Source: Modestobacter marinus
GTDB taxonomy: Bacteria > Actinomycetota > Actinomycetes > Mycobacteriales > Geodermatophilaceae
Length of the DNA stretch: 64,000 nt
Assembly (NCBI RefSeq): GCF_011758655.1
Contig: NZ_JAAMPA010000001.1
Location: forward strand, 434,001 to 498,000
Direction: 5' to 3'
In this document: in pieces, positions 13,777 to 56,527 of the stretch
Numbering within the stretch: the stretch's first letter is position 1
Layout of the letters: each line of letters opens with the position of its first letter
The notes under the pieces: generated by a model
What the model was told of the DNA's origin: nothing
The model's database searches: none
Seen by the model: the letters and a program-made list of their open reading frames with translations, nothing else
Position numbers and translations under genes: made by a program

Positions 13777-14431
13777 CCACAAGGACCCCGTCGCCGTGCT
13801 CGGCCTGGGGCGGTTCGGCACCGCGCTCGCCCTGGAACTGGCCCGCGGTGGCACCGAGGTGCTCGCCGTGGACAACCGGCCCGACATCGTCCAGCGGCTG
13901 TCCGGGCAGCTGGGGCAGGTCGTCATCGCCGACGCCACCGACGCCGACGCGCTGGGCGAGATCGGCATCGCCGACTTCAGCCGCGTCGTCGTGGCCATCG
14001 GCGGCCACCTCGAGGCCAGCATCCTCGCCACGGCGCTGCTGTCCGAGCTCGGCATCCGCGACATCTGGGCCAAGGCCGTGACCCGGCAGCAGGCGACCAT
14101 CCTCAGCCGCATCGGCGCCCATCACGTCGTCTTCCCCGAGCAGGAGATGGGCGAGCGGATCGCCCACCTGGTCGCCGGCCGGCTGCTGGACTGGGTGGAG
14201 CTGGACCCGCAGTGGGTGTTCGCCAAGACCAAGCCGCCGAGGGAGATCGTCGGCGTCCCGCTCGGCCAGACCGGCCTGCGCAAGAAGCACCACGTCACGG
14301 TGGTGTCGGTGAAGCCGGAGAACTCGTCGAGCTACACGCACGCCGACTACGACACCGTGCTCACCTACGGCGCCGAGATCGTCATCGCCGGGCGGCCGGC
14401 CGAGGTGGAGCGCTTCGTCGAGCTGCAGTGA
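13769..14431 (+). CDS. KtrA/TrkA-type RCK regulatory subunit
   Basis: 220 residues starting at TTG (13769), inside the end of the channel gene, with GAGGAGAG 8 nt upstream. The N-terminal RCK_N domain shows the nucleotide-binding GLGRFGTALALELA and acidic VLAVDNRPD. The C-terminal RCK_C domain starts around residue 140. The octameric ring binds ATP/ADP, and in some species c-di-AMP, to gate the KtrB pore. Its stop faces the PepSY gene across about 115 bp. Confidence 0.92.
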   Translation: MASHKDPVAVLGLGRFGTALALELARGGTEVLAVDNRPDIVQRLSGQLGQVVIADATDADALGEIGIADFSRVVVAIGGHLEASILATALLSELGIRDIWAKAVTRQQATILSRIGAHHVVFPEQEMGERIAHLVAGRLLDWVELDPQWVFAKTKPPREIVGVPLGQTGLRKKHHVTVVSVKPENSSSYTHADYDTVLTYGAEIVIAGRPAEVERFVELQ

Positions 14432-14449
14432 CCACCGGCCACGCGCGGA

Positions 14450-14486
14450 GGTGCCCCCGGCAGGACCCGGGCCTCCGGCACGTGGT
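14450..14486 (+). other. Degenerate copy of the tRNA-Arg 3' end (possible attachment-site remnant)
   Basis: The first 16 bases are identical to the complement of the tRNA-Arg acceptor/T-arm at 17565-17580, and about 30 of 37 bases match overall, in direct orientation. The intervening 3.1 kb holds only the PepSY gene and a two-component system. This could be a scar of tRNA-directed integration. It could instead be part of a GC-rich terminator hairpin downstream of ktrA. Confidence 0.35.
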
Positions 14487-14545
14487 CCGTGGTCCCGATC
14501 GGAGCAGGTCCGCGCCTGCTGCCTGACCCCGCCGGCCTGCGCGGG

Positions 14546-15247
14546 TCAGTCGTCGTCCCCGTCAGCGTCGTCGTCCCGGTCGGTCCCCAGCACGCTGCCA
14601 TCGCCGGCGTCCACGGTGACCTCGTGGAAGGAACCGTCGGCCGCGCGGACCCCCACCTCCCAGACGACGGACCCGTTCTCCTCCTCCAGGTGGCTCCACG
14701 CCACCTCTCCGCCATCGACCGCCTCGACCGCCGCGGTGGCCGCGGCGTCCTCGTCGACGGAGGCCAGCTCGGCCAGCGCCGTCTGCTCGGCTGCGTCGTC
14801 CGCGGGGAGGGTGGACTCGTCCACGGTGACCGTGCCCGCCTGGCGCAGTTCGTCCTCGTCATCGTCGTCGTCACGCTCGGTGCCCAGGACGCTCGCGTCC
14901 CCGGCGTCGACGGTGACCTCGTGGACCGACCCGTCGTCGGCGCGGACGGCGACCTCCCAGACGACGAACCCGTCCTCCTCCTCCAGCTCGCTCCCGGCGA
15001 CCTCCCCGCTGCCGACCGCCTCGACCGCCGCGACGCCCGCGGCGTCCTCGTCGACGGAGGCCAGCTCGGCCAGGGCCTCCTGCTCCGCCGCGTCGTCCTC
15101 GGGCAGGGCCGACTCCTCCACGGGGATCGTGCCGGGCAGACCCAGCTCGTCGTCGCCGCCCGTGGTGGCGAGTGCGACACCGCCGGCGGCGGCGAGCGCC
15201 AGGGCGGTCGCGGCGGTGATGACGGTGGCTCGCTTGCGAAGGCGCAT
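14546..15247 (-). CDS. Exported protein with two tandem PepSY domains
   Basis: 233 residues from ATG at 15247 with an AGGAGAGGAA site. An N-terminal signal/anchor (ATVITAATALALAAAGGVAL) is followed by two PepSY units, each with AALxE-like helices, EVTVDAGDxSVLGT and VVWEVxVRAxDGS. The two units are nearly the same, pointing to a recent internal duplication. The protein is very acidic and ends in an Asp run. PepSY proteins are extracytoplasmic, often modulating peptidases or acting with sensor kinases. It is divergent from the OmpR-type regulator, so joint control is likely. Confidence 0.85.
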   Translation of the reverse strand: MRLRKRATVITAATALALAAAGGVALATTGGDDELGLPGTIPVEESALPEDDAAEQEALAELASVDEDAAGVAAVEAVGSGEVAGSELEEEDGFVVWEVAVRADDGSVHEVTVDAGDASVLGTERDDDDDEDELRQAGTVTVDESTLPADDAAEQTALAELASVDEDAAATAAVEAVDGGEVAWSHLEEENGSVVWEVGVRAADGSFHEVTVDAGDGSVLGTDRDDDADGDDD

Positions 15248-15310
15248 CGGGTGTTCCTCTCCTACGGGACCGGCCGGGTGCTGGTCTCTCCTCCTCCACG
15301 CTCCCGGCCG

Positions 15311-15378
15311 TCGGTGAGAGGACGATGAGCTGGAAGTGGCAGCCCGTCTCACCGTCGTCTCACCGTCGTCCCACCGGG
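15311..15378. promoter_or_regulatory. 11-bp direct repeats in the PepSY/response-regulator intergenic region
   Basis: Three head-to-tail units, GTCTCACCGTC (15346-15356), the same again (15357-15367) and GTCCCACCGGG (15368-15378), lie 18 bp before the regulator ATG. An inverted half-site, CGGTGAG, occurs at about 15312. Direct repeats with 11-bp spacing are typical of OmpR/PhoP-family binding sites, suggesting the regulator encoded next binds here. Confidence 0.55.
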
Positions 15379-15396
15379 TCGTGCGAGGCTCGGTGC

Positions 15397-16080
15397 ATGC
15401 GCGTGCTGGTCGTCGAGGACCACGACAAGATGCGCGACGTCCTCCAGCGGGGGCTGACCGAGGCGGGCTATGCCGTCGACGCCGTCGGCGACGGGGTCGC
15501 CGCGGTGTCCCACGCCGCGTCGCGGACGTACGACGCGATCGTGCTCGACGTGATGCTGCCGGGCATGGACGGCGTGGAGGTCTGCCGGACGTTGCGGGAC
15601 CGGGGGGTCTGGACGCCGGTGATCATGCTCACCGCCCGGGACTCGATCACCGACCGGGTCCGAGGGCTCGACCACGGGGCGGACGACTACCTGGTCAAGC
15701 CGTTCGCCTTCACCGAGCTGCTCGGTCGTCTCCGGGCCCTGCTGCGGCGTGGCGGGTCGCCGCGGCCCGCGGTGTTGCGGTGCGGGCCGCTGTCGCTGGA
15801 CCCGGCGACCCGCATGGTCGAGTGCCGCGGCGAGCCCGTCGAGCTGTCCGCGCGCGAGCTCGCGCTGCTGGAGTTCCTGCTGCGCAACCCGGAGCGGGTC
15901 CTGTCGCGAGCGGTGCTCGTGGAGCACGTGTGGGGCCTCGACTACGACGGTGCCTCCAACGTCGTCGACGTCTACGTGAAGTACCTGCGCGACAAGATCG
16001 ACCGGCGGTTCGACGTCGACCTGTTGCGCACCGTCCGAGGCGCCGGCTATCGGCTGGCCTGTGCGGATCCGGGTCGTTGA
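15397..16080 (+). CDS. OmpR/PhoB-family response regulator
   Basis: 227 residues. The receiver domain has the acidic pair in VVEDHD, phospho-acceptor Asp51 (VLDVMLPG), Thr79 and Lys101 (YLVKPF). The C-terminal winged helix has LSARELALLEFLLRNPERVL and ends TVRGAGYRL. It should be phosphorylated by the kinase encoded immediately downstream. The 11-bp direct repeats in front of the gene suggest autoregulation and control of the divergent PepSY gene. Confidence 0.93.
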   Translation: MRVLVVEDHDKMRDVLQRGLTEAGYAVDAVGDGVAAVSHAASRTYDAIVLDVMLPGMDGVEVCRTLRDRGVWTPVIMLTARDSITDRVRGLDHGADDYLVKPFAFTELLGRLRALLRRGGSPRPAVLRCGPLSLDPATRMVECRGEPVELSARELALLEFLLRNPERVLSRAVLVEHVWGLDYDGASNVVDVYVKYLRDKIDRRFDVDLLRTVRGAGYRLACADPGR

Positions 16081-40272: not shown

Positions 40273-40824
40273 CCCCGGGGCCGGCTCGCCCCTCCCGGGC
40301 GCGGGCCGGCCCGCTCGACCGACCCGGCGCACGGCAGCCCCGACGCTGCCCTGCGCCTGCGACTGCCCTGCGCCGCTGACTGCCCTGCGCCGCTGACTGC
40401 CCTGCGCCTCGGAGCGGGCCGCACCTCCGCGCTGCCCCCACCTCACGGCTGCCCCGCCCCTACAGCGGCCCGCACCTCATGGCGGCCCCGCACCCCCGCG
40501 CCTGCAGCTGCCCCGCGCCCCGGGCCCCGGGCCCCGGGCGAACCCCACATCCCCACGCTGTCCCGCGCCTCGAGGCCGCCCGCGCCTCCCGCTGCCCTGC
40601 GCCTCAGGGGACGTCCCGCGTCTCGGAGTGCCGAGCCGACGAGCGCGCCGGAACCACCCGTGACCGGCTGTGCGGTCCCGGTTCCGGCGTGTCGTCGGAT
40701 GGGCGTGTCGGTCGACCGGCCGGCCTGCGGCCGCACCGGCGTCCGGCGCCGCGCACGCCGCTCACCTGCGGTCATGCCCCGGGAACGAGGTGCGGCACCC
40801 TCCAGACGTGGGGCGAGCGTCGCG
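40273..40824. repeat. C-rich non-coding region with degenerate short tandem repeats
   Basis: Between 40344 and about 40412 a 17-18 bp unit built on CTGCCCTGCGCC occurs four times in a row. Related GCTGCCC and GCGCC words then recur irregularly to about 40620. One strand is strongly C-biased. No open frame with convincing codon use is found on either strand. The rest (40620-40824) shows no clear element. Unit-to-unit spacing is too short for CRISPR spacers. Confidence 0.65.
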
Positions 40825-40945: not shown

Positions 40946-42196
40946 GTGACACAGTCCCCCCGCCGCGTCGGCATCGCCATCGTCGGGCTCGGAGGTGCGG
41001 TCGCGACCACCGCGGTCGCCGGCCTCGAGCTGCTCCGGCTGGGCGCCGTCGCCGCCGACGGCCTCCCGCTGGCCGGCCTGACCATCGGCGACGTCCCCGT
41101 GGAGGAGGCCACCGGCCTGGCCCACTACGACGACCTGGTCGTCGGCGGCTGGGACCTCGACGGCTCCGACCTCTACAAGGCCGCCGAGCAGCACGGCGTG
41201 CTCGACGCCCGCCAGCTGCAGCAGGCCGAGCCGCTGCTGTCGACGCTCACCCCGTGGCCGGCCGCCGGTGACGCCGACTTCTGCCGCAACGTGACCGGCG
41301 GCAACGTCGTGCTGGCCGAGGGCCGGCGCGCCCAGGCCGACGCCGTCCGCGCCGACCTGCGTCGGTTCCGCGAGGAGCAGCAGCTCGACGGGCTGGTGCT
41401 GATGAACCTCGCCTCCACCGAGCGCTGGCCCGACCCGGCGGCGGCCGCCCTGCAGACGCCGGAGGCCTTCGAGGCCGGGCTGGACGCCGACGACCGGTCG
41501 ATCACCCCCTCGATGGTCTACGCCTACGCGGCCATCTGCGAGGGCGTCGGCTACGCCAACTTCACCCCGTCGCTGTCGGCCGACGTACCGGCCCTGGTGC
41601 AGCTGTCCGAGCAGCGCGGCGTGCCGATCGCGGGCAAGGACGGCAAGACCGGCCAGACGATGATGAAGACGGTGCTCGCGCCGGCCTTCCGCAGCCGCGC
41701 GCTGACCGTCGAGGGCTGGTACTCGACGAACATCCTGGGCAACCGGGACGGCCTGGCCCTCGACGACCCGGCGTCCCTGGAGAGCAAGCTGCAGACCAAG
41801 GGCAAGGTGCTGGACTCGATCCTGGGCTACCCGGTCGAGGACCACGTCGTCCGGATCGACTACTACCGGCCGCGGGGTGACCAGAAGGAGGCCTGGGACG
41901 CCATCGACCTGGTCGGCTTCCTCGGCCAGCGGATGCAGATCAAGGTCGACTTCCAGTGCCGGGACTCGATCCTGGCCGCGCCGCTCGCGGTCGAGATCGC
42001 CCGGCTGGTCGACCTCGCCCAGCAGCGTGGCGAGGGCGGTGTGCAGGACCACCTGGGCTGGTTCTTCAAGGCGCCGATCACCGCCGACGGCAGCACCCCG
42101 GAGCACGCGATGCACCGGCAGGAGTCGGTCCTGATGGACTGGCTGAGCAGCGGTGCGGCGCAGGCGGGGAGCGACGCGGACCCCGGCTCCCGGTGA
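40946..42196 (+). CDS. Inositol-3-phosphate synthase-like enzyme
   Basis: 416 residues from GTG with GAGGAG upstream. It has the NAD-binding IVGLGGAVATTAVAG, then LVLMNLASTERWPD, and the family hallmark ITPSMVYAYAAICEG followed by AGKDGKTGQTMMKTVLAPAF. Ino1 enzymes convert glucose-6-phosphate to myo-inositol-3-phosphate through an NAD redox cycle. First gene of a ten-gene cluster in which every downstream start overlaps the previous stop. Whether it is the cell's housekeeping Ino1 or a pathway-specific copy cannot be told from this window. Confidence 0.9.
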   Translation: MTQSPRRVGIAIVGLGGAVATTAVAGLELLRLGAVAADGLPLAGLTIGDVPVEEATGLAHYDDLVVGGWDLDGSDLYKAAEQHGVLDARQLQQAEPLLSTLTPWPAAGDADFCRNVTGGNVVLAEGRRAQADAVRADLRRFREEQQLDGLVLMNLASTERWPDPAAAALQTPEAFEAGLDADDRSITPSMVYAYAAICEGVGYANFTPSLSADVPALVQLSEQRGVPIAGKDGKTGQTMMKTVLAPAFRSRALTVEGWYSTNILGNRDGLALDDPASLESKLQTKGKVLDSILGYPVEDHVVRIDYYRPRGDQKEAWDAIDLVGFLGQRMQIKVDFQCRDSILAAPLAVEIARLVDLAQQRGEGGVQDHLGWFFKAPITADGSTPEHAMHRQESVLMDWLSSGAAQAGSDADPGSR

Positions 42197-43113
42197 CGGC
42201 GACGACGACGGGGACGGCGGTCGGGCTGTCGTCCCTCGGGGCGCTGCGTCCCCTGCTGGCCGGGATCGGTGACGCCAAGCGGGTCCGCACGGCCACGGCC
42301 CCCGGCTCGCTGGCCGAGCAGGCGTTCTCCCGGTCCTGGGCCCGGCTGGTGGCCGGCGAGGACGCCGGGTCGGTGGCGCTGACCGAGACCGCGGCCGCCG
42401 TCGCCCGGGTGCGGCTGGCCGGCGTCGACGCGTCGGTGCTGACCTCCGCCGGGCTGTCGGACGACGAGGCCGTGACGGTGCTGCGGCGGGCGTTCGACGA
42501 GGTCGCCGGGCCGCTCGACGGCGACCTGGCCGGCCGGCTGCGCGAGTGCCTGGCCCCGCTGCCCGGCGGGGGTGCGCCGCCGTCCCTGGTGGTGTCGCTG
42601 AACGCCCAACCGCGGGCGGGGGCCACCAGCCCCGGCAAGCCTCGGGTGGTCGTCGAGCCGCCGGAGAGCCACGGCGACCACTGCTTCACCGTCGCCGTCT
42701 ACGGCTGCCTGCTGGCCCCGCTCGTGGGCGCGGACCCGGTCGCCCCGTTCCTGGTCGGTCTGGCCCACCACCTGCACAACGTGGTGCTGCCCGACGCCGG
42801 TTTCGCCGGGGAGGTGCTGCTGGGCAGCGCGCTGGACCGGGTGATCGGCACGCTGGAGGAGCGGGAGCTCGCCGGGCTGCCGGCTCCGCTGGCGGACCGG
42901 CTGCGAGAGGTGCTGCGGCTGCGGGCCAACGCCGTCGCGCCCGGGTCGCAGGCCTTCCACGCCGCCGACGTGCTCGACCGGGTGCTGCAGGTGCACCACC
43001 ACGCCCGGGCGGCGGCGTTCACCGCCGCGCAGGCGCTCGACGACCTGGAGCTCGTGCACGCCGGGCCGGTGCAGTCCTTCCACCTCGACGTGCTCGCCGC
43101 GGCCGGGTTGTGA
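42193..43113 (+). CDS. HD-like helical protein of the inositol/YcaO cluster
   Basis: 306 residues from a GTG overlapping the preceding stop (GTGA). The middle holds an HD-superfamily-like arrangement: ESHGDHCFTVAVYGCLLAP, then FLVGLAHHLHNVVLPDAGF, and later ADVLDRVLQVHHHARA. The usual His-Asp pair reads His-His. Such folds are metal-dependent phosphohydrolases or inositol oxygenase-like enzymes, and either would fit the cluster. N-terminal 150 residues are unassigned. The specific family is not recognised. Confidence 0.6.
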   Translation: MTATTTGTAVGLSSLGALRPLLAGIGDAKRVRTATAPGSLAEQAFSRSWARLVAGEDAGSVALTETAAAVARVRLAGVDASVLTSAGLSDDEAVTVLRRAFDEVAGPLDGDLAGRLRECLAPLPGGGAPPSLVVSLNAQPRAGATSPGKPRVVVEPPESHGDHCFTVAVYGCLLAPLVGADPVAPFLVGLAHHLHNVVLPDAGFAGEVLLGSALDRVIGTLEERELAGLPAPLADRLREVLRLRANAVAPGSQAFHAADVLDRVLQVHHHARAAAFTAAQALDDLELVHAGPVQSFHLDVLAAAGL

Positions 43114-44168
43114 ACACGAAGGCGGCTCCGGTGCCCACCGGCGTGACCACGGCCGGGGTGCCGGTCGTGGACGGCATCCCGTTCGCCCGCGCGGGCCGGG
43201 AGGAGCTGCGCGACCGGGTCGCCGGGCTGCTCGCCGCCGGGGAGGTCGACCGGGCCCGGGTCGCCCTGTTCGCCGACGCCGACGACTGGTGGTCCGAGCC
43301 GCCACCGCCGGAGGCCCAGCTGGCGCGGGTGCCGGCGGCACGGAGCCTCCGTGAGGCGATGGACCTGCTCGGCATGGGCCGGGTCGGCGACTACTTCGCC
43401 CACCGCTGGTCGGATCCGACCCACCTCGCCGGCCTGGCACTGCTCGGCCAGCACTGGCCCGGGGACCGGCCGGTGGTGGACGTGGCCTGCGGGGTCGGCA
43501 CCCAGCTGCGCGAGCTCTCCCGCCGCGGGGTGCGCGACCTCCTCGGCCTGGACGTCGTCTGGTCCAAGCTGTGGCTGGCCCAGCGCTTCGTCTGCCCCGG
43601 GGCCCGCTACGTCTGCGCCGACCTGACCGCCCTACCGGACCTGCAGGTGCCCCGTCCCGCGTACGTCACCTGCCACGACGCCTTCTACTTCCTGCGCGAC
43701 AAGCCCGCGGCCGCGGCTGCGATGCACGCGCTGGCCGGCCCGGGCGGGACGGTCGTCGTCGGCCACGCCCACGTCGCCGACACGGTCTCCGCGGGCGAGC
43801 CCCTGGCCCCGGCCGAGTACGCCCGGCTGCTCGGGGCCACCGTGCTCTACGACGACGCCGAGCTCACCGCCGCGCTGCTGGCCGGGCGCCCGCCGCGCCC
43901 GGCCGCGGCCCGGGAGCTGACCCGGAGCGAGGCCATCGGCCTGGTCGCCGGCGACCTCCGCGGGCCGGCCCCGCAGGACCTGGGCGACCCGCTCGGTCCG
44001 CTGCGGCCCAACCCGCTCTACGTCGACGGCGAGCTCCGCTGGCCCAGCGAGCGCTACGCCGCCGAGTACGGCCCCCGGTCGGGGCACCTGCCGGCCCGCT
44101 GGCCCGAGCCGCTGCCCGCCGACGCCGCCCGCCGCCGGCTGCTCGTCGACCTGCCGGAGCAGTGGTGA
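43110..44168 (+). CDS. Class I SAM-dependent methyltransferase
   Basis: 352 residues from a GTG overlapping the previous TGA. The SAM-binding motif I is VVDVACGVGTQLRELSRRG, followed by LLGLDVVWSKLWLAQRFV and YVCADLTALPDL, with CHDAFYFLRDKPAAAAAMHA as the post-motif region. About 110 N-terminal residues and a C-terminal extension of 100 are additional. The methyl acceptor is presumably an intermediate of the cluster product. Confidence 0.8.
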   Translation: MNTKAAPVPTGVTTAGVPVVDGIPFARAGREELRDRVAGLLAAGEVDRARVALFADADDWWSEPPPPEAQLARVPAARSLREAMDLLGMGRVGDYFAHRWSDPTHLAGLALLGQHWPGDRPVVDVACGVGTQLRELSRRGVRDLLGLDVVWSKLWLAQRFVCPGARYVCADLTALPDLQVPRPAYVTCHDAFYFLRDKPAAAAAMHALAGPGGTVVVGHAHVADTVSAGEPLAPAEYARLLGATVLYDDAELTAALLAGRPPRPAAARELTRSEAIGLVAGDLRGPAPQDLGDPLGPLRPNPLYVDGELRWPSERYAAEYGPRSGHLPARWPEPLPADAARRRLLVDLPEQW

Positions 44169-45187
44169 GCAGCGTCGGTTGGGGGGTGGCCGGCTGCGGC
44201 TGGGTGGCGCGCGACCACGCCGTCCCCGCGCTGCGGCAGGTGCCCGGCGCCCGGCTGGTGGCCCTGCACGACCGGGACCCGGGCGCGATGGCCCGGATGC
44301 CCACCGACGCACCCGCGACGACCGACCTGGCCGCCTTCCTGGCCACCCCCGGGCTCGACGCGGTCTACGTGGCGGTGCCCAACTCCGCGCACCGGCAGGT
44401 CGTCGAGGCCGCGGCCGCCGCCGGGGTGGCGGTGCTGTGCGAGAAGCCGCTGGCCGCCGACCTCGCCGACGCCGAGGCCGCCGTCGCCGCGGCCGACCGG
44501 GCCGGCGTGCTGCTCGGCACCGCCTACGACCAGCGCTGGCACCCGGCGCACGTCCGGCTGCGCGAGCTGGTGCCCGAGCTCGGCACGGTCACCGCCGTCC
44601 GGGTCGTGTACTGCTGCTGGCTGCCGGCCGACTGGTCACCCGACGGCCGGCCGCACGACAACTGGCGCATCGACCCCGCCCGCGCCGGGGGCGGCGCCGC
44701 GATCGACCTGGCGCCGCACGGCCTGGACCTGGCCGGCGTCCTGCTCGGCGAGGACGTCGCCGAGCTCACCGCGCTGCTGCAGCGCCGGGTGCAGCGCTAC
44801 CCGGTCGACGACGGCGCGCTGCTCATCGGCCGCACCGCCGGCGGCGTGCTGGTCGACCTGCACGTGGCCTACAACTGCCCCGACGCCCTCCCCCGCCGCC
44901 GGCTGGAGGTCGTCGGGACCCGGGGCACGGCCGTCGCCGTGGACACGATGGGCCAGACCCCCGGCGGGTCGCTGACGCTGTTCCGCCCCGAGCCGGTCGA
45001 CGTCCCGTTCGCCGGCACCGACCCGTTCAGCGCGCAGTTCGCCGGCTTCGGCGCCGCGGTCGCCGGCACCGGCCCCTGGCCGTACCCGGCCGCCCGCGAC
45101 CTGGCCCTCCACCGGCTGCTGGTCACCGCGCTGGGCCGGGCCACCGCACGCCCGTCGACGACGATCCGAGAGGAGCTGCCCGCGTGA
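44165..45187 (+). CDS. Gfo/Idh/MocA-family oxidoreductase
   Basis: 340 residues from a GTG overlapping the previous stop. The N-terminal Rossmann domain has GVAGCGWVARDHAVPAL and the conserved VLCEKPLAADLADAEAA with the catalytic-region lysine of EKP. The C-terminal part contains PHDNWRIDPARAGGGAAIDL, as in sugar and inositol dehydrogenases. It probably oxidises or reduces an inositol or sugar hydroxyl with NAD(P). The neighbouring TIM-barrel gene supports an inosose-like intermediate. Confidence 0.85.
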   Translation: MSSVGWGVAGCGWVARDHAVPALRQVPGARLVALHDRDPGAMARMPTDAPATTDLAAFLATPGLDAVYVAVPNSAHRQVVEAAAAAGVAVLCEKPLAADLADAEAAVAAADRAGVLLGTAYDQRWHPAHVRLRELVPELGTVTAVRVVYCCWLPADWSPDGRPHDNWRIDPARAGGGAAIDLAPHGLDLAGVLLGEDVAELTALLQRRVQRYPVDDGALLIGRTAGGVLVDLHVAYNCPDALPRRRLEVVGTRGTAVAVDTMGQTPGGSLTLFRPEPVDVPFAGTDPFSAQFAGFGAAVAGTGPWPYPAARDLALHRLLVTALGRATARPSTTIREELPA

Positions 45188-46071
45188 ACCCCGAACCCGC
45201 CACCAACCCCTACCGCGGCCTGCTGCCCGACCTGCCCGCCTTCGCCTGTACCCACTGCGGGCACTGGCAGCGCTGGCCGGCGCCCGGCCCGCAGGTCTGC
45301 CCGGTGTGCGCCGACGTGCGCAACGCCCTGCCCGAGCACGGCTTCGAGTTCGTGACGCCGAAGCAGGCCGACGAGCTGGTGATCGGCTCCTGGCGGCCCA
45401 CCGCGGTCGCCGGCATCACCGAGTTCTTCACCGAGCCGCGGTTCGGGCTGGACAGCCGCGGCTGGGTGATCGAGACCGACGCCGGGCTGGTCGGCTTCGA
45501 GTGCGCCCCCTGGTACACGCCCGAGATGCTGGCCGAGCTGCGCCGGATGGCACGTGAGTTGGGCGGCTTCGATGTGCTGGCGTCCAGCCACGTGCACGGC
45601 TACGGCGCGCTGTGGCAGCTGCAGCTGGAGCTGGAGCCGGGCACCGTGTGCGTCGGGGTGCGCGACCTGGAGTGGACCAAGGCCTTCCGGGTCACCTGGC
45701 CGGCCGACGACGTGCTGGAGCTGGCCCCCGACCTCACCCTGCACCGCACCGGCGGCCACTTCCCCGGGCACTCGGTGCTGCACGACACCCGCCGCGGGGT
45801 GCTGTTCTGCGGCGACTCGCTGAAGGTCGACCTGGACGGCGACGGCCACCCCGTCGGGCTGAGCGCGCACAAGGCGTTCCACGCGCAGATCCCCCTGTCG
45901 CACGGGGAACTGCGGGAGTACCTGGCGGTGGTCGCCGAGCTGGAGTTCGGCACCGTCGCCACGCCGTTCGAGCTGGTGCCGGGCGTGACCACCGACCACG
46001 TCGTCCACCTGGTGCAGCGGCTGCTGTCCCGGCGGCCGGACGCCGCGCCGATCCCGCTGGCCGAGCTGTGA
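45184..46071 (+). CDS. Zinc-ribbon plus metallo-beta-lactamase-fold protein
   Basis: 295 residues from a GTG overlapping the previous stop. The N-terminus is a zinc ribbon, CTHCGHWQRW then CPVC (residues about 22-40). The rest is an MBL-fold domain: LASSHVHGYGALWQL in place of the HxHxDH motif (Asp-His missing), then HRTGGHFPGHSVLHD and LFCGDSLKVD. Some metal ligands are present, so activity may be preserved in modified form. Role in the cluster unknown. Confidence 0.75.
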   Translation: MNPEPATNPYRGLLPDLPAFACTHCGHWQRWPAPGPQVCPVCADVRNALPEHGFEFVTPKQADELVIGSWRPTAVAGITEFFTEPRFGLDSRGWVIETDAGLVGFECAPWYTPEMLAELRRMARELGGFDVLASSHVHGYGALWQLQLELEPGTVCVGVRDLEWTKAFRVTWPADDVLELAPDLTLHRTGGHFPGHSVLHDTRRGVLFCGDSLKVDLDGDGHPVGLSAHKAFHAQIPLSHGELREYLAVVAELEFGTVATPFELVPGVTTDHVVHLVQRLLSRRPDAAPIPLAEL

Positions 46072-47510
46072 GCACCGCGCAGCGTTACCTGGACTCGTTC
46101 CCACCGGGGGTCGAGGAGTTCGCCATCGAGGGGCTGGACTCCCTCGACGTGCCGCTGCACAGCGCCTTCCTCAGCTCCTCCCCGGCACACCCCGGCGGCA
46201 GCGGGCTGGGCTACGGCGCGACCCGGGAGGAGGCGCGCACCGGTGCGCTGGGCGAGATGGCGGAGATGGCGCTGTCCATCCGCGCCCACGCCGGGCTGGA
46301 CCGGGTGCACGGCTCCTACCGCGAGCTGGCCCGCACCGAGGGCCGCGACCGGGTGGCCGACCCGCGCACGCTGTGCCTGGAAGCCGGCAGCCTCTACGAC
46401 GACGACCGGCCGCTGCAGTGGCTGCCGATGACGCGCACCCGGGACGGCGAGCAGGTGCTCGTCCCCGCCGAGCTGGTGGTCTCCGCCCCCGAGGAGCTCC
46501 CCGGCGACCCGCCCCCCGGCGGCTGGCTCACCACGGTCCTCACCAACGGGCAGGGCGCCGCCTTCGACGCCGACCGGGCGGTCTCGCACGCGCTGCTGGA
46601 GCTGCTGCAGCGCGACGGCAACGCCACCACCTTCCGGGCGCTGGACCAGGGCGTGGTGCTGGACCTGGCCGGGCTGCGCGACCCGGATGCGCTGGCGTTG
46701 CTCGACCGGCTGGACGCCGCGGGCATCGACGTCCTGGTCAAGCTGGCGAGCACCGAGCACGGCGTCGTCGACGTCTACGCGGTCGGCTGCTCGCGGGACG
46801 GCTCGGAGCCGGCCCCGATGATGGTCACCGCCTGTGGAGAGGCCGCCTCCCCCGACCGGGACGCCGCCGTCCGCAAGGCGCTGTTCGAGTTCGCCGCCGC
46901 CCGCAGCCGCAAGGCCTTCATGCACGGGCCGCTGGACGCCGTCGCGGCCGCGACCCCGCCGGGCTACCTGGACCAGTGGCTGCGCGGGCACCCGCCGGAG
47001 CGGATGGTCGAGGAGGACCGGGCGCTGCAGGCGATGCTGGCCTGGACCCGGCTGGGCACCGACCGGCTGGTCGAGCTGCTGCAGGGGTCGGTGCTGTCCC
47101 GGCGGCGCACCGTGGCGCTCACCGACCTGCCCACCCGCAGCGCCGGGGACCCCGTCGGCGCGCTCACCGCCGAGGGGTTCGACGTGCTGGTCGACCTGCA
47201 GCCCTCGCGGGGCGAGGCGGTCGCGGCGAAGGTGCTGGTGCCGGGGCTGGAGGCCGAGACGATGTCCTACGGCCGGATCGGCGAGCGCGGCGTGCAGCGG
47301 CTGCTGGAGCGGGAGGGCCCCGGCGCCGGGCTCGCCGTCGTGGGCGCCGACCCGGGCGGCTGGGCGCGGGTGCACCTGACCGCGGCGGCCGAGGAGCGGC
47401 TCGGCGGGCCGGCCTGGTTCGACCGGGCCGGCGCCGACCGGGTGGTGGGCGCGCTGTACGCGCTCTACCGCGAGCCCGGCCGGCACGTCGCGGCCCTGGC
47501 GGCAGCATGA
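46068..47510 (+). CDS. YcaO-like protein
   Basis: 480 residues from a GTG overlapping the previous stop. YcaO signatures are GYGATREEARTGALGEMAEM (the ExxE ATP-binding helix) and TTVLTNGQGAAFDADRAVSH then ALLELLQRD, corresponding to the NGxAxG and ExxERD motifs, with Q replacing one Glu. The C-terminal VLVDLQPSRGEAVAAKVLVPGLE also fits. YcaO enzymes phosphorylate an amide oxygen with ATP to install azolines, thioamides or amidines. No TfuA or McbC-type partner is in the window, so a non-peptide or novel substrate is possible. Confidence 0.85.
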   Translation: MSTAQRYLDSFPPGVEEFAIEGLDSLDVPLHSAFLSSSPAHPGGSGLGYGATREEARTGALGEMAEMALSIRAHAGLDRVHGSYRELARTEGRDRVADPRTLCLEAGSLYDDDRPLQWLPMTRTRDGEQVLVPAELVVSAPEELPGDPPPGGWLTTVLTNGQGAAFDADRAVSHALLELLQRDGNATTFRALDQGVVLDLAGLRDPDALALLDRLDAAGIDVLVKLASTEHGVVDVYAVGCSRDGSEPAPMMVTACGEAASPDRDAAVRKALFEFAAARSRKAFMHGPLDAVAAATPPGYLDQWLRGHPPERMVEEDRALQAMLAWTRLGTDRLVELLQGSVLSRRRTVALTDLPTRSAGDPVGALTAEGFDVLVDLQPSRGEAVAAKVLVPGLEAETMSYGRIGERGVQRLLEREGPGAGLAVVGADPGGWARVHLTAAAEERLGGPAWFDRAGADRVVGALYALYREPGRHVAALAAA

Positions 47511-48337
47511 AGCTGCGCTACGCCTACAACACCAACGGGCTGACCTCCCACCGGCTGGACGACGCGCTGTCCTTCCTCGCCGACACGGGCTACGCCGGGG
47601 TGGCCCTGACCCTCGACGTGGTGCACCTGGACCCCTTCGCCGACGACGCGTTCGCCCAGGCCGAGCGGGTGCGGGCGCGCTGCGACGCCCTCGGGCTCGG
47701 CGTGGTCGTGGAGACCGGCGCCCGGTTCCTGCTCGACCCGCGGGTGAAGCACGAGCCGACCCTGGTCAACCCCACCGCCGAGGGCCGCGCCCGCCGGCTG
47801 GCCTACCTGCGGCTGGCCTGCGACCTGGCCGAGGTGCTGCAGGCCGAGGCGGTGAGCTTCTGGGCCGGCGTGCCCCAGCCGGGGGTCGGCCGGGACGACG
47901 CGGAGCGCTGGCTGGTCGACGGCGTCCGGGCCCTGGTCGACAGCCACGGCGGGCGCTCCTACGACCTGGCCGTCGAGCCGGAGCCGGGGATGCTCGTCGA
48001 GGACGCCGACGACTGGGCCCGGCTCGCCGCCGAGGTGCCCGGGCTGACCCTGGCGCTGGACACGGGGCACTGCGTGGTCAGCGGCCGGTACGCCCCCGAG
48101 GAGGCGGTGACCGCCTTCGCCGGGCAGCTCGGGACGGTCGCCGTCGAGGGGATGCGCCGCGGCGTGCACGACCACCTGCCCCTGGACGAGGGCGACGTCG
48201 ACCTGCCCGCCGTGCTCGGCGCGCTCCGCGACACCGGCTACGACCGGCTGGTGACGCTCGAGCTGTCCCGGGACGGCCACCGGGCGCACCACATGGTGCC
48301 CCGCTCCATCGAGCTCCTGCGGAAGGCCGAGTCATGA
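47507..48337 (+). CDS. Sugar-phosphate isomerase/epimerase-like TIM barrel (AP_endonuc_2 fold)
   Basis: 276 residues from an ATG overlapping the YcaO stop (ATGA). Fold features of xylose-isomerase-like enzymes are YAYNTNGLTSHRLDDALSFL, VEPEPGMLVEDADDW, LALDTGHCVVSGRYAPE and LVTLELSRDGHRAHHM. The Glu, Asp/His and Glu ligands match the metal site of inosose isomerase or hydroxypyruvate isomerase types. It could isomerise the keto product of the Gfo/Idh enzyme, but the substrate is not certain. Confidence 0.8.
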   Translation: MKLRYAYNTNGLTSHRLDDALSFLADTGYAGVALTLDVVHLDPFADDAFAQAERVRARCDALGLGVVVETGARFLLDPRVKHEPTLVNPTAEGRARRLAYLRLACDLAEVLQAEAVSFWAGVPQPGVGRDDAERWLVDGVRALVDSHGGRSYDLAVEPEPGMLVEDADDWARLAAEVPGLTLALDTGHCVVSGRYAPEEAVTAFAGQLGTVAVEGMRRGVHDHLPLDEGDVDLPAVLGALRDTGYDRLVTLELSRDGHRAHHMVPRSIELLRKAES

Positions 48338-49542
48338 GGATCTGCTTCGTCAGCCGCCGCTACTGGCCGGCGGTCAGCGGGATGAGCGTCTACGCGGAGA
48401 ACCTGCTCCGCGAGCTCGTGGCGCTCGGCCACGAGGTGACGCTGGTCAGCCAGTACCGGGACGACGAGGCGGGCACCCGGGTCTACGGCGGCGGCCTGCC
48501 GCCGGCCGACCGGGTGCCGGCGGGCGTCGAGGTGCACGCCCTGCCCAGCCGGGGCGAGACCGTCGTCCCGGCCGACTGGGAGGGCGACATCGCCGAGATC
48601 GTGCGCACCGTCGTCGAGCTGCACGAGCAGCGGCCCTTCGACGTGCTGCACGCCCAGTACGGCTACCCGCCCGGCCTGGCGGTGCTGGAGGCGTCCCGGC
48701 GGACCGGCCTGCCGAACCTGGTCAGCATCCAGGGCGGGGACGGGCACTGGGTGGGCACCTGCTGCACCACGCACGCCGAGGCCATGCGCACCGTGCTGGA
48801 CCACGCCGGCGCGGTGCTGATCGGCAGCGCCAGCTTCCGCGACGAGGTCGTGGGCAACCTGGGCACCGACCCGGCGCGGTTCACGATCGTGCCCGGCGCG
48901 ACCGACACCACCCGGTTCACCCCGGGCGACCGGCCGCTCGGCAGCCTGGCCGACCCGCCGGTGCTGCTGTTCCACGGCCGGGTCGACCGGCGCAAGGGCG
49001 TGCTGGACCTGCTCGAGGCGCTGCCCGACGGCGTCCGGCTGGTGGTGTCCGGCATCGGCCCGGACCTGGACGAGGCGAAGGCCCGCGCCGACGGGCGCAC
49101 CACCTTCCTCGGCTACGTGCCCCCGGACGAGGCGCCGGCGGTCTACCGGACCGCCGACGTCTTCGTCAGCCCGACCTACAGCGAGGGGTTCAGCAACACC
49201 CTGCTGGAGGCGATGGCCAGCGGCCTGCCCACGGTGAGCACCGACAGCGTCGGCGTCGTGGACTGCCTGCGGCACGAGGAGAACGGGCTGCTGCACGAAC
49301 CCGGGGACGTCGCGGGCCTGCGCAAGGAGCTGGACCGGCTGCTCACCGACGCCGACCTGCGCGCCCGGCTGGCCACCACCGCGCTGGAGGAGGTGCGCCG
49401 GCTGTACTCCTGGCCGGTGCTGGCGCGCAGCATCGACGCCGTCTGCACCGAGCTGGCCGGCACCGCACCGGACCTGGACTGGAGCGCGCCGGCCACGGTG
49501 GACCCGTCCTGCCGGTTCCGGTCCGCGGCACACCTGCTCTGA
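48334..49542 (+). CDS. GT-B glycosyltransferase (family 4, MshA-like)
   Basis: 402 residues from an ATG overlapping the previous stop. N-terminal MRICFVSRRYWPAVSGMSVY and C-terminal FVSPTYSEGFSNTLLEAMAS with the E-x7-E nucleotide-sugar site define GT-B family 4. In mycothiol synthesis MshA joins GlcNAc to inositol-3-phosphate. The inositol-phosphate synthase and PIG-L deacetylase genes in the same cluster make an analogous glycosyl-inositol a good guess. Donor sugar unknown, possibly supplied by the epimerase at 50264. Confidence 0.88.
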   Translation: MRICFVSRRYWPAVSGMSVYAENLLRELVALGHEVTLVSQYRDDEAGTRVYGGGLPPADRVPAGVEVHALPSRGETVVPADWEGDIAEIVRTVVELHEQRPFDVLHAQYGYPPGLAVLEASRRTGLPNLVSIQGGDGHWVGTCCTTHAEAMRTVLDHAGAVLIGSASFRDEVVGNLGTDPARFTIVPGATDTTRFTPGDRPLGSLADPPVLLFHGRVDRRKGVLDLLEALPDGVRLVVSGIGPDLDEAKARADGRTTFLGYVPPDEAPAVYRTADVFVSPTYSEGFSNTLLEAMASGLPTVSTDSVGVVDCLRHEENGLLHEPGDVAGLRKELDRLLTDADLRARLATTALEEVRRLYSWPVLARSIDAVCTELAGTAPDLDWSAPATVDPSCRFRSAAHLL

Positions 49543-50267
49543 TGCGCGTGCTCGCGGTCAGCCCGCACCTGGACGACGCCGCATTCTCCGCCGGCGCCAC
49601 GCTGGCGGCGCTGGCCGACGCGGGCCACGAGGTCACCGTGCTCACCTGCTTCACCCGCAGCGTGCCCGACCCGACGGGCTTCGCACTGGCCTGCCAGCTG
49701 GACAAGGGGCTTCCCCCCGACGTCGACTACCTGGCGCTGCGCCGGGCGGAGAACGCCGCGGCGGTCGCCGTGCTCGGGGCGACGGCGGTCGACCTGGACC
49801 TGCCCGAGGCACCGCACCGCGGCTACACCAGCGCACCGGACCTGTTCGCCGGCGTGCACCCCGGGGACGACGTCTGGCGCGACGTCGCCGATCAGCTCGC
49901 CGGCCGGGACGCCGACCTGTGGCTGGCCCCGCAGGCGCTCGGTGGCCACGTCGACCACCTGCAGGTGCTGCGCGCGGTGGCCTCGCTGGACCGGCCGGTG
50001 CTGTGGTGGCGGGACAGCCCCTACGTGCTGCGGGAGCCCGACGCCGTCCCCGGTGCCGCGCTCCCCGCCGGGCTGTCACCGGTCGCGCTGCCGCAGCTGC
50101 CCGATCGGCGAGCCGACGCGTGCGCCTGCTACCGGACGCAGCTGGGCTTCCAGTTCGGCGGCGAGGCCGGGATGCGCACCGCCCTGGCGGAGCTGCTCGA
50201 GGTGCTGCTGGCCGGGCCGGCGGCGCGCTCGGTGCTGCCCGCGGAGCTCGCGGCGGGCCGGGCATGA
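49542..50267 (+). CDS. PIG-L-family deacetylase (MshB-like)
   Basis: 241 residues; its ATG shares the last base of the glycosyltransferase stop (TGATG). The metal motif PHLDDAAFSAGATL replaces the usual PHPDDE but keeps His and Asp residues, and the second motif GGHVDHLQVLRAV provides the other histidines. These enzymes deacetylate GlcNAc-inositol compounds in mycothiol and GPI synthesis. Placement after the glycosyltransferase argues for removal of an N-acetyl from the product. Confidence 0.88.
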   Translation: MRVLAVSPHLDDAAFSAGATLAALADAGHEVTVLTCFTRSVPDPTGFALACQLDKGLPPDVDYLALRRAENAAAVAVLGATAVDLDLPEAPHRGYTSAPDLFAGVHPGDDVWRDVADQLAGRDADLWLAPQALGGHVDHLQVLRAVASLDRPVLWWRDSPYVLREPDAVPGAALPAGLSPVALPQLPDRRADACACYRTQLGFQFGGEAGMRTALAELLEVLLAGPAARSVLPAELAAGRA

Positions 50268-51235
50268 CCTGGCTGGTCACCGGCGGCGCCGGGTACATCG
50301 GGTCGCACGTGGTGCAGGCGATGGCCGCCGCGGGTGAGTCGCTGGTGGTGCTCGACGACCTGTCCAGCGGGGACGCCGGCCGACTGGAGCAGCTGCCCGG
50401 GGTGCCGCTGGTCGTCGGGACCGTCCGCGACCGCGCGCTGGTGGACCGGGTGCTGGGCGAGCACGCGGTGCAGGGCGTGGTGCACGTGGCCGGCAAGAAG
50501 GCGGTGGCGGAGTCGGTCGCCGACCCGCTGCGGTACTTCGCCGAGAACGTCGAGGGCCTGGTCTCGCTGCTGGAGAGCTGCCGGTCCGCGGGCGTGGGCC
50601 GGATCGTCTTCTCCAGCAGCGCCGCGGTCTACGGCGCCCCCGACACCGACCCGGTGACCGAGGACGTCCCGTGCCGGCCGCTGTCGCCCTACGGGCAGAC
50701 CAAGCTGGTCAGCGAGTGGGTGCTGCGCGACTGCGCCACCGCCCACGGGCTGGCGGCCACCTCGCTGCGGTACTTCAACGTGGCCGGCGCCGTGCAGCCC
50801 CGGCTCGGCGACACCGGTGCGGCCAACCTGGTGCCGATGGTCTTCGCCGCCCTGGACGCCGGCCGGGCGCCGGTGGTGTTCGGCGACGACCACGCCACCC
50901 CCGACGGCACCGGGGTGCGGGACTACGTGCACGTCTCCGACGTCGCCGCCGCGCACCTGGCCGCGGCGCGGGCGCTGACCGCCGGCTCGCCGGGCGGCAC
51001 CTACAACGTCGGCACCGGGACCGGCTGCAGCGTCCGCGACGTGCTCCGCGTGGTCGCCGAGGTGACCGGGGCCGACACCACCCCCGAGGTGGCCGGCCGC
51101 CGGCCCGGGGACCCGGCCAGCGTGGTCGCCGCGGTCGGCCGGATCGAGCGCGAGCTGGGCTTCCGGGCCCGGTTCGACCTGCACGACATGGTCAGCAGCG
51201 CCTGGACCGCCTGGCGCCTGCTCCAACCGCGGTGA
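50264..51235 (+). CDS. UDP-glucose 4-epimerase-like NAD-dependent epimerase
   Basis: 323 residues from an ATG overlapping the previous stop. The extended SDR features are TGGAGYIGSHVV, FSSSAAVYG, the catalytic YGQTK and the C-terminal GVRDYVHVSDVAAAHL then TYNVGTGTGCSVRDV. This matches GalE-type enzymes, which interconvert UDP-glucose and UDP-galactose or their GlcNAc forms. As last gene of the cluster it probably supplies the donor sugar. It converges on the ATP-grasp gene with only 28 bp between stops. Confidence 0.9.
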   Translation: MTWLVTGGAGYIGSHVVQAMAAAGESLVVLDDLSSGDAGRLEQLPGVPLVVGTVRDRALVDRVLGEHAVQGVVHVAGKKAVAESVADPLRYFAENVEGLVSLLESCRSAGVGRIVFSSSAAVYGAPDTDPVTEDVPCRPLSPYGQTKLVSEWVLRDCATAHGLAATSLRYFNVAGAVQPRLGDTGAANLVPMVFAALDAGRAPVVFGDDHATPDGTGVRDYVHVSDVAAAHLAAARALTAGSPGGTYNVGTGTGCSVRDVLRVVAEVTGADTTPEVAGRRPGDPASVVAAVGRIERELGFRARFDLHDMVSSAWTAWRLLQPR

Positions 51236-54742: not shown

Positions 54743-56527
54743 TCAGCGGATGCCGTGCCGCTGCAGCCAGAGCTCCAGCAGCCCGGCCTGCCACAGCTGG
54801 TTGGCGCCCAGCGTCGTGCGGTGGCCGTTCGGGTCGGCGAGCAGCTGCTCCACGTAGTCGGCGCGGAACAGGCCGCGCTCCCGGGCCTCGGGTGCGTGCA
54901 GCGCCGCGCGCACCGTCTCCAGGTAGTCGCCGTGCAGGTCGGTGATCGCCGGCACCGGGAAGTAGCCCTTCGGCCGGTCGATCACGTCGGCGGGGATGAC
55001 CCTGCGAGCGGCGTCCTTGAGCACGCCCTTGCCGCCGTGGGCGAGCTTGAGCTCCGGCGGGACGGCGGCGGCGAGCTCCACGAACTCGTGGTCCAGGAAC
55101 GGCACGCGGGCCTCCAGGCCCCAGGCCATCGTCATGTTGTCCACCCGCTTGACCGGGTCGTCGACCAGCATGATCGTCGAGTCCAGGCGCAGCGCCTTGT
55201 CCAGCGTCGTCTCCGCCCCGGGCCGGGCGAAGTGCTCGGCGATCAGCGCCCGGCTGACGTCGTCGGTCACCATCCAGCGGTCGGCGAGCTGGGTGGCCAG
55301 CTCGGCGTGCGACCGGTCGACGAAGACCCGCGCGTAGGCGTCGACGGCCTGCTCGGCCGGGACGCCCTGCAGCGGCGGGTACCAGTCGTAGCCGGCGAGC
55401 ACCTCGTCGGCGCCCTGGCCGCTCTGCACCACCTTGACGTGCTGGCTGACCTGCTGGGAGAGCAGGTAGAAGGCGACCGCGTCGTGGCTGACCTGCGGCT
55501 CGCTCATCGCCGCGACCGCGCCGTCGAGGCCGGCGTGCACGTCGGCGCTGGGCACCATCAGCCGGTGGTGGTCGGTGCCGAAGGTCTCGGCGACGACGTC
55601 GGAGTAGGCGAACTCGTCCCCGGACCGCTCGCCCACGGCCTCGAAGCCGATGGAGAACGTGGCCAGGCCCTTCTGCCCCTCCTCGGCGAGCAGGCCGACG
55701 ACGAGGCTGGAGTCGATGCCGCCGGACAGCAGCACGCCCACCGGGACGTCGGCGACCATCCGCCGGCGCACCGCCACGCGCAGCTGCTCCAGCACGCGCT
55801 CCTGCCACTCCCCGGCGTCCAGACCGGCGAACTCGGCCCGCCGCTCGTGCACCGGGCGCCAGTACTCCCAGTCGGACTCCCGGCCGTCGGGCTCGTAGGT
55901 GCGCACCGTGGCCGGCGGCAGCTTGCCCACCCCGGCCAGGATCGTGCGCGGCGCCGGGACGACGGCGTGGAAGGACATGTAGTGGTGCAGGGCGACCGGG
56001 TCGATGCTGGTGTCCACCCCGCCGGCGCGCACCAGCGCGGGCAGCGAGGAGGCGAAGCGCAGCCGCCCGGGCCCGCGGCTGAGGTACAGCGGCTTGATGC
56101 CGAACCGGTCACGGGCCAGCACCACCCGGCCGGACTCCCGCTCGACGACGGCGAACGCGAACATCCCCAGGAAGCGCTCGACGCAGGCCGCACCCCACCG
56201 GTGGTAGGCCTTGAGCACCACCTCGGTGTCGGAGGTGGAGAAGAACCGGTAGCCGGCGCCCTGCAGCTCGGCGCGCAGCTCCTTGTAGTTGTAGATGATC
56301 CCGTTGAAGACCATCGTCAGCCCGAGCTCCGCGTCGACCATCGGCTGCGCGCCCGCGTCGGTCAGGTCGATGATCTTCAGCCGCCGGTGCCCGAGCGCCA
56401 CCGGCCCGGCCTGCCACCCGCCCGAGCCGTCGGGCCCCCGTCGCTGCAGCTGGTCGCACATGGCGCTGACCGCCGCCATGTCGGCGATGCCTCCGTCGAA
56501 CCGGACCTCACCCGAGATGCCGCACAC
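54743..56527 (-). CDS. asnO: Asparagine-synthase-like amidotransferase, N-acetylglutaminylglutamine-amide type
   Basis: 594 residues from GTG with GGGGAGGGG upstream. The class II glutaminase has Cys2 (MCGISGEVRFDG) and LQRRGPDGSGGW. The synthetase domain has the pyrophosphatase loop LLSGGIDSSLVVGL. The segment RLRFASSLPALVRAGGVD then SFHAVVPAPRTILAGV is what I recall from the amidotransferase of the N-acetylglutaminylglutamine-amide (NAGGN) osmolyte trio. It amidates a carboxylate with glutamine-derived ammonia and ATP. First gene of a three-gene unit. Confidence 0.88.
   Translation of the reverse strand: MCGISGEVRFDGGIADMAAVSAMCDQLQRRGPDGSGGWQAGPVALGHRRLKIIDLTDAGAQPMVDAELGLTMVFNGIIYNYKELRAELQGAGYRFFSTSDTEVVLKAYHRWGAACVERFLGMFAFAVVERESGRVVLARDRFGIKPLYLSRGPGRLRFASSLPALVRAGGVDTSIDPVALHHYMSFHAVVPAPRTILAGVGKLPPATVRTYEPDGRESDWEYWRPVHERRAEFAGLDAGEWQERVLEQLRVAVRRRMVADVPVGVLLSGGIDSSLVVGLLAEEGQKGLATFSIGFEAVGERSGDEFAYSDVVAETFGTDHHRLMVPSADVHAGLDGAVAAMSEPQVSHDAVAFYLLSQQVSQHVKVVQSGQGADEVLAGYDWYPPLQGVPAEQAVDAYARVFVDRSHAELATQLADRWMVTDDVSRALIAEHFARPGAETTLDKALRLDSTIMLVDDPVKRVDNMTMAWGLEARVPFLDHEFVELAAAVPPELKLAHGGKGVLKDAARRVIPADVIDRPKGYFPVPAITDLHGDYLETVRAALHAPEARERGLFRADYVEQLLADPNGHRTTLGANQLWQAGLLELWLQRHGIR

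Follow-up and report, generated by a model that had tools for sequence, protein, structure and literature searches.

The window analysed here, a stretch of 64,000 nucleotides, corresponds to G000:C1:434001-498000 of the 5.1-Mb genome of Modestobacter marinus. At 40946-51235 it carries ten genes on the + strand (g1 to g10, Table 1), in which a YcaO-family enzyme (g6) stands among genes of sugar and inositol metabolism. All ten reading frames are present. Neighbouring genes share 4 bases (GTGA/ATGA) at eight of the nine junctions and a single base at the other; therefore there is no room for an additional gene inside the window block. Judged by these junctions, the block is one tightly coupled operon. 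Conservation as a unit shows that g1 to g9 (40946-50267) make up a nine-gene cassette. The first-pass annotation, made from the sequence alone, had described ten same-strand genes with overlapping stops and starts at this place, and every frame and all nine junctions agreed with it. Its list of gene families from Ino1 to GalE was likewise borne out by Pfam and TIGR assignments, and its HD-like gene by HD_3 matches and the predicted fold. In comparison with the Modestobacter locus L014, the ratio of non-synonymous to synonymous substitution (dN/dS) was 0.13-0.38 across all ten genes. The observation of these ten genes goes beyond chance because of these ratios and because the gene order recurs in three phyla.

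Table 1. Features of the block in the window (positions in the window) and of one upstream flank (positions in locus L018).
Feature	Position	Strand	Support
g1, inositol-3-phosphate synthase (Ino1), not mycothiol type	40946..42196	+	PF07994 E 1.1e-63; PF01658
g2, HD-fold protein with helical N-terminal part; possible metal phosphohydrolase	42193..43113	+	predicted fold
g3, S-adenosylmethionine (SAM)-dependent methyltransferase	43110..44168	+	PF13649 32.5 bits, cut-off 27
g4, Gfo/Idh/MocA sugar or cyclitol oxidoreductase	44165..45187	+	PF01408, PF22725
g5, four-cysteine ribbon and metallo-beta-lactamase (MBL) fold	45184..46071	+	PF00753 27.0 bits, cut-off 22.7
g6, YcaO-family ATP-dependent enzyme, stand-alone form	46068..47510	+	PF02624 168 bits, cut-off 25.7
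g7, xylose-isomerase-like TIM barrel	47507..48337	+	PF01261 E 2.6e-32
g8, GT4 (GT-B) glycosyltransferase, retaining by family	48334..49542	+	PF00534 E 1.1e-30
g9, PIG-L family N-deacetylase	49542..50267	+	PF02585 53.8 bits, cut-off 28.2
g10, UDP-glucose 4-epimerase GalE, adjoins nine-gene block	50264..51235	+	TIGR01179 348.7 bits, cut-off 262.3
ABC-2 transporter and two-component genes	L018:1185-4769	-	flank families, one member of each named

Residue conservation was analysed in the window and 22 chosen loci, the same set being used for the distance correlations given below. The orthologue sets consist of best matches covering >70% of the query in a single frame and with no inner stops; the Gfo of the Hymenobacter locus was left out of them and its GT4 was included as a fragment. 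In g4, K94, D181 and H185 are invariant in all 20 sequences, and the best solved match is 2glx. The ribbon cysteines C22, C25, C39 and C42 of g5, which precede the MBL domain, are invariant in 16 sequences along with H136, H138, H192 and D211. For g7, whose best solved match is IolE 9zmu (29 bits), E157, D185, H188 and E252 are invariant (23/23). E284 and E292 of g8, which show EX7E-like spacing, are invariant in 23 sequences, one of them the Hymenobacter fragment. H9, D11, D12, H136 and H139 of g9 are invariant in 22/22, with 3dfi as the best solved match. The nearest solved structure of g1 is 7nwr (283 bits). The putative catalytic residues are thus invariant, which says only that the enzymes of the block are kept intact.

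The g2 protein of the window has no Pfam match at E up to 0.001. HD_3 was matched by 14 of the 17 sequences of the g2 alignment at E up to 0.1 (best 7.4e-5), and by the window g2 itself at E 0.061, under the cut-off. An HD fold was found in the predicted structure of g2, which matches HD phosphohydrolases by VIA-align; a Foldseek search with the same predicted fold gave no match under E 0.001. No MIOX or other HD-oxygenase chain was found among the listed structural matches. Set against the H...HD...D pattern of metal ligands, H163, H192 and D259 are invariant, the partner of H192 being H193, in a register estimated from aligned structure ranges, not from coordinates.

Conservation and distribution of the nine-gene block

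In the genome collection 27 loci were found with YcaO, of which 26 are titled as Geodermatophilaceae genera or strain and one as a Pseudonocardia metagenome-assembled genome (MAG). Among named relatives, those nearest to the window locus are Modestobacter strains and one Geodermatophilaceae strain, with YcaO proteins 91-92% identical. The genes g1 to g9 were observed in order at 23 of the 27 loci. Loss of gene order in relatives had been named in the first-pass annotation as grounds for refuting the cluster, and the order is kept. Among the other four loci, L013 and L022 begin inside the block at contig ends, L034, on a MAG contig that ends at the block, has g2 to g8 and a short Ino1 piece on the opposite strand, and L035 has the block without Ino1.

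Outside the family, all nine genes were found in four distant actinobacteria (L040, L042, L043 and L044), with YcaO and the TIM barrel swapped in order in L042 and L043. In a fifth distant actinobacterial genome, g4 to g8 lie on a short contig (L041, 4.9 kb). A survey of 72,556 plasmid records found YcaO in four and g2 in just those four, and the block order recurs on them; they are plasmids of Roseomonas haemaphysalidis (L052), which has all nine block genes, Hymenobacter volaticus (L053), and Methylobacterium aquaticum and Methylobacterium bullatum (L054, L055). The block proteins of the plasmids are 39-64% identical to those of the window. The nine-gene set is not confined to Actinobacteria; it is present in three phyla, on plasmids in two of them. 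In the Hymenobacter locus, the Gfo/Idh (L053:10045-11093) and GT4 (14314-15545) genes are each split over two frames, which could reflect decay of this copy or errors in its sequence. One genome of the same genus as the window (G480) has a block that is complete except that its YcaO is broken into two frames close to the C-terminus (L067:9133-10567, -). Past the Roseomonas block, after an mdoH gene, lie two genes annotated as spore-photoproduct-lyase family (L052:17747-19868, -).

Co-occurrence was analysed in a class sample of 394 genomes and a family sample of 112 genomes. YcaO (E up to 1e-20) was found in 9 and g2 in 5 of the class genomes, and all five with g2 also had YcaO; the block of a further class genome, G370, lies on a contig that ends before g2. 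In the family sample YcaO was present in 41 genomes and g2 in 32, and again all 32 genomes with g2 had YcaO. Distances of YcaO correlated with those of other block genes (r 0.94-0.98), falling to 0.25-0.35 among distant pairs for three genes. These correlations carry little weight because shared ancestry confounds them and the distant pairs are weak for three genes. In Pantoea, where a remote MBL relative (28% identical) occurs, neither a YcaO nor an inositol gene is annotated in the 8 kb to each side of it, and no relative was found in viral contigs scanned with the MBL protein.

In the window, serC, a serine-pathway gene, lies just before the block. The block-less site was sought in 10 of the 15 YcaO-negative genomes of the same genus and in two genomes of another genus, and was read in seven of the ten same-genus genomes in which it was located. 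None of the seven same-genus YcaO-negative genomes read has g1 to g9 at the serC site. In four of them, the gene found past the block in the window comes within ~65 bases after serC; in another two (L074, L075), serC is followed by GalE and then by this same gene; in the remaining one, the neighbourhood of serC is otherwise altered. As far as these sites tell, the block comes and goes as a unit. Because GalE occurs at this site without the block in two of the seven, it is separable from the nine genes, and its history is not simple since it is also missing in five of the seven. Elsewhere GalE is directly downstream of the block in a minority of loci, inverted in others and absent from the rest. 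A ten-gene unit including GalE was therefore rejected. The ten-gene cluster of the first-pass annotation stands as an operon in the window, but not as a conserved unit of ten, since nine genes are conserved and GalE is separable.

Flanks were compared at 39 of 40 places by a codon-based gene finder trained on the window; it predicted no gene in the Hymenobacter locus and likely misses genes in other low-GC or foreign loci. GalE was present at 16 of the 39 places, and every other flank family was common to at most 8. No transporter is common to all flanks across these places. At six places of Geodermatophilus or Blastococcus (L016, L018, L026, L027, L029, L033), genes for a divergent ABC ATPase, an ABC-2 membrane protein, a histidine kinase and a response regulator are situated just upstream of g1, possibly representing an exporter and a sensor for the product. 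Between serC and g1, where the window block begins on its left, the stretch 40400-40640 is very GC-rich and repetitive, with GGGCCC runs. Two genes past GalE, at 54743-56527 (-), lies an N-acetylglutaminylglutamine amidotransferase gene (TIGR03104, 981 bits, cut-off 570), an osmolyte-synthesis gene which is also found at the same site in six of the seven block-less relatives.

The YcaO enzyme and comparison with known systems

g6 belongs to the YcaO superfamily. Its PF02624 score lies over the cut-off, the YcaO fold was found in its predicted model, and the conserved acidic and arginine residues, which have roles in the nucleotide site of YcaO enzymes, are present. Stand-alone archaeal YcaO structures come nearest to the predicted model, and its top structural match is a YcaO with bound peptide. 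The part aligned to archaeal YcaOs is 1-416, with about 60 further residues beyond. On TIGR03266, the model of the YcaO for McrA-glycine thioamidation, g6 scored 64.7 bits against a cut-off of 365; its SagD score was 72.7 bits (cut-off 219).

A cluster for a ribosomally synthesized and post-translationally modified peptide (RiPP) was considered and rejected, as no precursor open reading frame (ORF) lies inside the window block or is shared upstream and the ten proteins include no recognisable YcaO partner. In the 700 bases before g1, any given small ORF is common to at most three loci; the search covered this upstream stretch and not the intergenic gaps, up to 305 bases long, in the blocks of some relatives, nor precursor genes farther away. 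TfuA, E1-like proteins and a PqqD-type RiPP recognition element were absent when the ten proteins were matched to Pfam (E up to 0.001). The likeness to YcaO RiPP clusters making azolines, thioamides or amidines is in the YcaO with its conserved acidic and arginine residues, whereas the block differs from them in having no precursor ORF found, no E1-like or TfuA partner and a low SagD score. YcaO is also used in protein thioamidation, by E. coli YcaO on uL16 and, as reported (PMC5589413), by archaeal stand-alone YcaOs on McrA. The window YcaO falls outside the McrA model and has no TfuA in its block, and it differs from these systems by sitting in a sugar-inositol operon and by its ~60 extra residues. 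According to PMC13063428, a TfuA homologue is lacking in E. coli, where the means of delivering sulfide is still an open question; the lack of TfuA is therefore compatible with thioamidation.

The mycothiol pathway uses Ino1, MshA, a phosphatase, MshB, MshC and MshD. The block shares with it an inositol-phosphate synthase, a GT4 and a PIG-L deacetylase, and perhaps the same skeleton logic, but it is without MshC or MshD and has YcaO, HD, Gfo/Idh, TIM-barrel and MBL proteins instead. Searches with mycothiol and bacillithiol models gave weak matches of block proteins to MshA, BshA, Mca and BshB1, all far below cut-offs. g8 scored 65.9 bits on TIGR03449 (MshA, cut-off 462.5) and g1 scored 42.1 bits on TIGR03450 (mycothiol Ino1, cut-off 638). 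A canonical MshC (638.9 bits, on contig C2) and a canonical mycothiol Ino1 (679 bits) are located elsewhere in the genome, and a second, sub-threshold MshC match (290 bits) lies outside the block at C1:564997-566181. A duplicate of the mycothiol pathway was thus rejected on the scores and on the canonical MshC and Ino1 elsewhere. No cysteine ligase, acetyltransferase or aminotransferase was found among the Pfam matches of the ten proteins. In aminocyclitol antibiotic clusters an aminotransferase makes the inosamine. Those of the kasugamycin, fortimicin and hygromycin A types resemble the block in combining Gfo/Idh and sugar genes with a chemistry based on inositol or aminocyclitols; the block differs in having no aminotransferase.

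In the literature searched, with most subscription papers and MIBiG outside its reach, no described counterpart of the gene set was found, nor any paper tying YcaO to an inositol-derived aminocyclitol pathway. The statement of the first-pass annotation that no pathway with this gene content had been described agrees with this result. The nine-gene pathway across phyla is real and, as far as searched, undescribed, with a fair chance of being categorically new.

Proposed pathway and its alternatives

The gene content suggests a self-contained, horizontally moving cassette, g1 to g9, for a small modified glycosyl-inositol, in which YcaO would activate a carbonyl of a small molecule; we consider this reading marginally favoured over its negation. 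Knowledge of the families is our basis for inferring the order of the steps, the donor of the sugar, what the YcaO acts on, the group finally installed and the identity of the product. g1 would convert glucose-6-phosphate to inositol-3-phosphate, to which g8 would add a sugar, probably an N-acetylated hexosamine. g2 would remove the phosphate and g9 would free an amine by deacetylation, while g4 and g7 would oxidise and isomerise one ring. The g6 YcaO would then use ATP to activate a carbonyl or amide of the small molecule. Sulfur, nitrogen or a nearby hydroxyl could in this way take the place of the oxygen or close on it. g6 may be helped by g5, for example in sulfur handling or hydrolysis, and g3 would carry out methylation. 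By analogy, a thioamide is the favoured outcome of the YcaO step, since the nearest structures are archaeal stand-alone YcaOs, reported for McrA thioamidation; an amidine or a sugar-fused oxazoline would be the alternatives. A more specific form of this proposal is a free glycosyl-inositol with such a YcaO-installed group (thioamide, amidine or sugar-fused oxazoline), made by the first YcaO pathway on a non-peptide small molecule and serving perhaps as a protective sulfur metabolite in sun- and drought-exposed bacteria of three phyla. This form is tentative and rather doubtful.

Several observations weigh against the glycosyl-inositol proposal. To our knowledge, YcaO substrates are peptides or proteins only. 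YcaO relatives 44-54% identical to the window protein occur without g2 in 12 sampled genomes, nine of them from one genus (g145), which accounts for all the YcaO-positive family genomes that lack g2, and three from other families in the class sample. Six lone-YcaO loci were read (L064, L065 and L066 of g145, and L039, L045 and L046), and they contain no other block gene except a 26%-identical epimerase in L039. In 11 of the 12 genomes a search for close MBL or GT4 orthologues gave none (MBL up to 29%, GT4 up to 39% identical), the block-bearing control G480 giving 93% for both. The YcaO tree places the lone copies among the block YcaOs; four changes of label are needed under parsimony, and no fewer than two are imposed by branches with good support. 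This type of YcaO can be kept without the pathway, and its substrate may then be one that many cells have, possibly a protein. These relatives weaken the idea that the YcaO substrate is always a product of the pathway, and because the YcaO type is retained without the pathway in some genomes, the small-molecule reading is rated at about one half. The block also varies in content: the Hymenobacter plasmid has eight of the nine genes, with no methyltransferase match, and the two Methylobacterium plasmids have eight each, with no MBL match. The solved matches of g8 include MshA, PimA and Tll1590, by which donor and acceptor are not fixed. In g2, the HD aspartate appears to be replaced by histidine. 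Export of the product is possible, at least at the six loci with the ABC-2 transporter. The interpretation given in the first-pass annotation is partly supported: its gene content and operon structure stand, and its methylated glycosyl-inositol product with YcaO acting on a non-ribosomal amide is still a proposal. The methyltransferase is missing from the Hymenobacter block, GalE is separable and YcaO has relatives without the block. As a separate observation, the lone YcaO of L039 (8113-10631, -) overlaps an adenosine deaminase gene (593 bits, over cut-off).

The YcaO may instead modify a protein or peptide encoded elsewhere, as reported for E. coli YcaO on the ribosomal protein uL16, with the sugar-inositol genes decorating the same target or merely linked. 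The nesting of lone relatives among block YcaOs and the peptide bound in the best structural match of g6 point in this direction, as does a 2026 paper that treats YcaO as the uL16-modifying enzyme (PMC13063428). Against such a target, g2 was never found without YcaO (32/32 family genomes, 5/5 class genomes, 4/4 plasmid records), no peptide gene lies inside the window block or is shared just upstream, and the block with its YcaO occurs in three phyla, on plasmids in two. We regard this explanation as unlikely.

Two further explanations concern the sugar genes themselves. Production of a mycothiol-like low-molecular-weight thiol or other sulfur metabolite, with the ATP-using YcaO standing in the place of MshC and a phosphatase as in mycothiol, would fit the likeness that Ino1, GT4 and PIG-L bear to mycothiol and bacillithiol enzymes. 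The sub-threshold scores of these matches, the canonical MshC and Ino1 elsewhere and the lack of a cysteine ligase or acetyltransferase all argue against it, and we know of no YcaO enzyme that joins an acid to an amine; it is considered quite improbable. The block could also be an operon for salvage or for a cell-envelope glycan, and not for biosynthesis of a free small molecule. Pairs of Gfo/Idh and TIM-barrel proteins occur also in glycoside breakdown, and DgpA is among the structural matches of g4; GT4 and PIG-L also serve envelope glycans, and the ABC-2 transporter just upstream at six loci is of a type also used for glycan export. The dedicated Ino1 and glycosyltransferase point to synthesis instead, and each flank family other than GalE is shared by at most 8 of 39 places, which also weighs against it, making this the least probable of the explanations, and a very improbable one.

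YcaO enzymes are known for their action on peptide and protein backbones. A pathway that keeps YcaO beside Ino1 and the GT4 and PIG-L enzymes across three phyla, no peptide gene having been found, allows a direct test of whether YcaO chemistry extends to carbohydrates. Should it do so, as the glycosyl-inositol proposal would have it, small-molecule modification would gain a new class, and these bacteria would have a new metabolite in common. Should the target of the YcaO prove to be a protein, the sugar-inositol operon travelling with it would still be unexplained biology.

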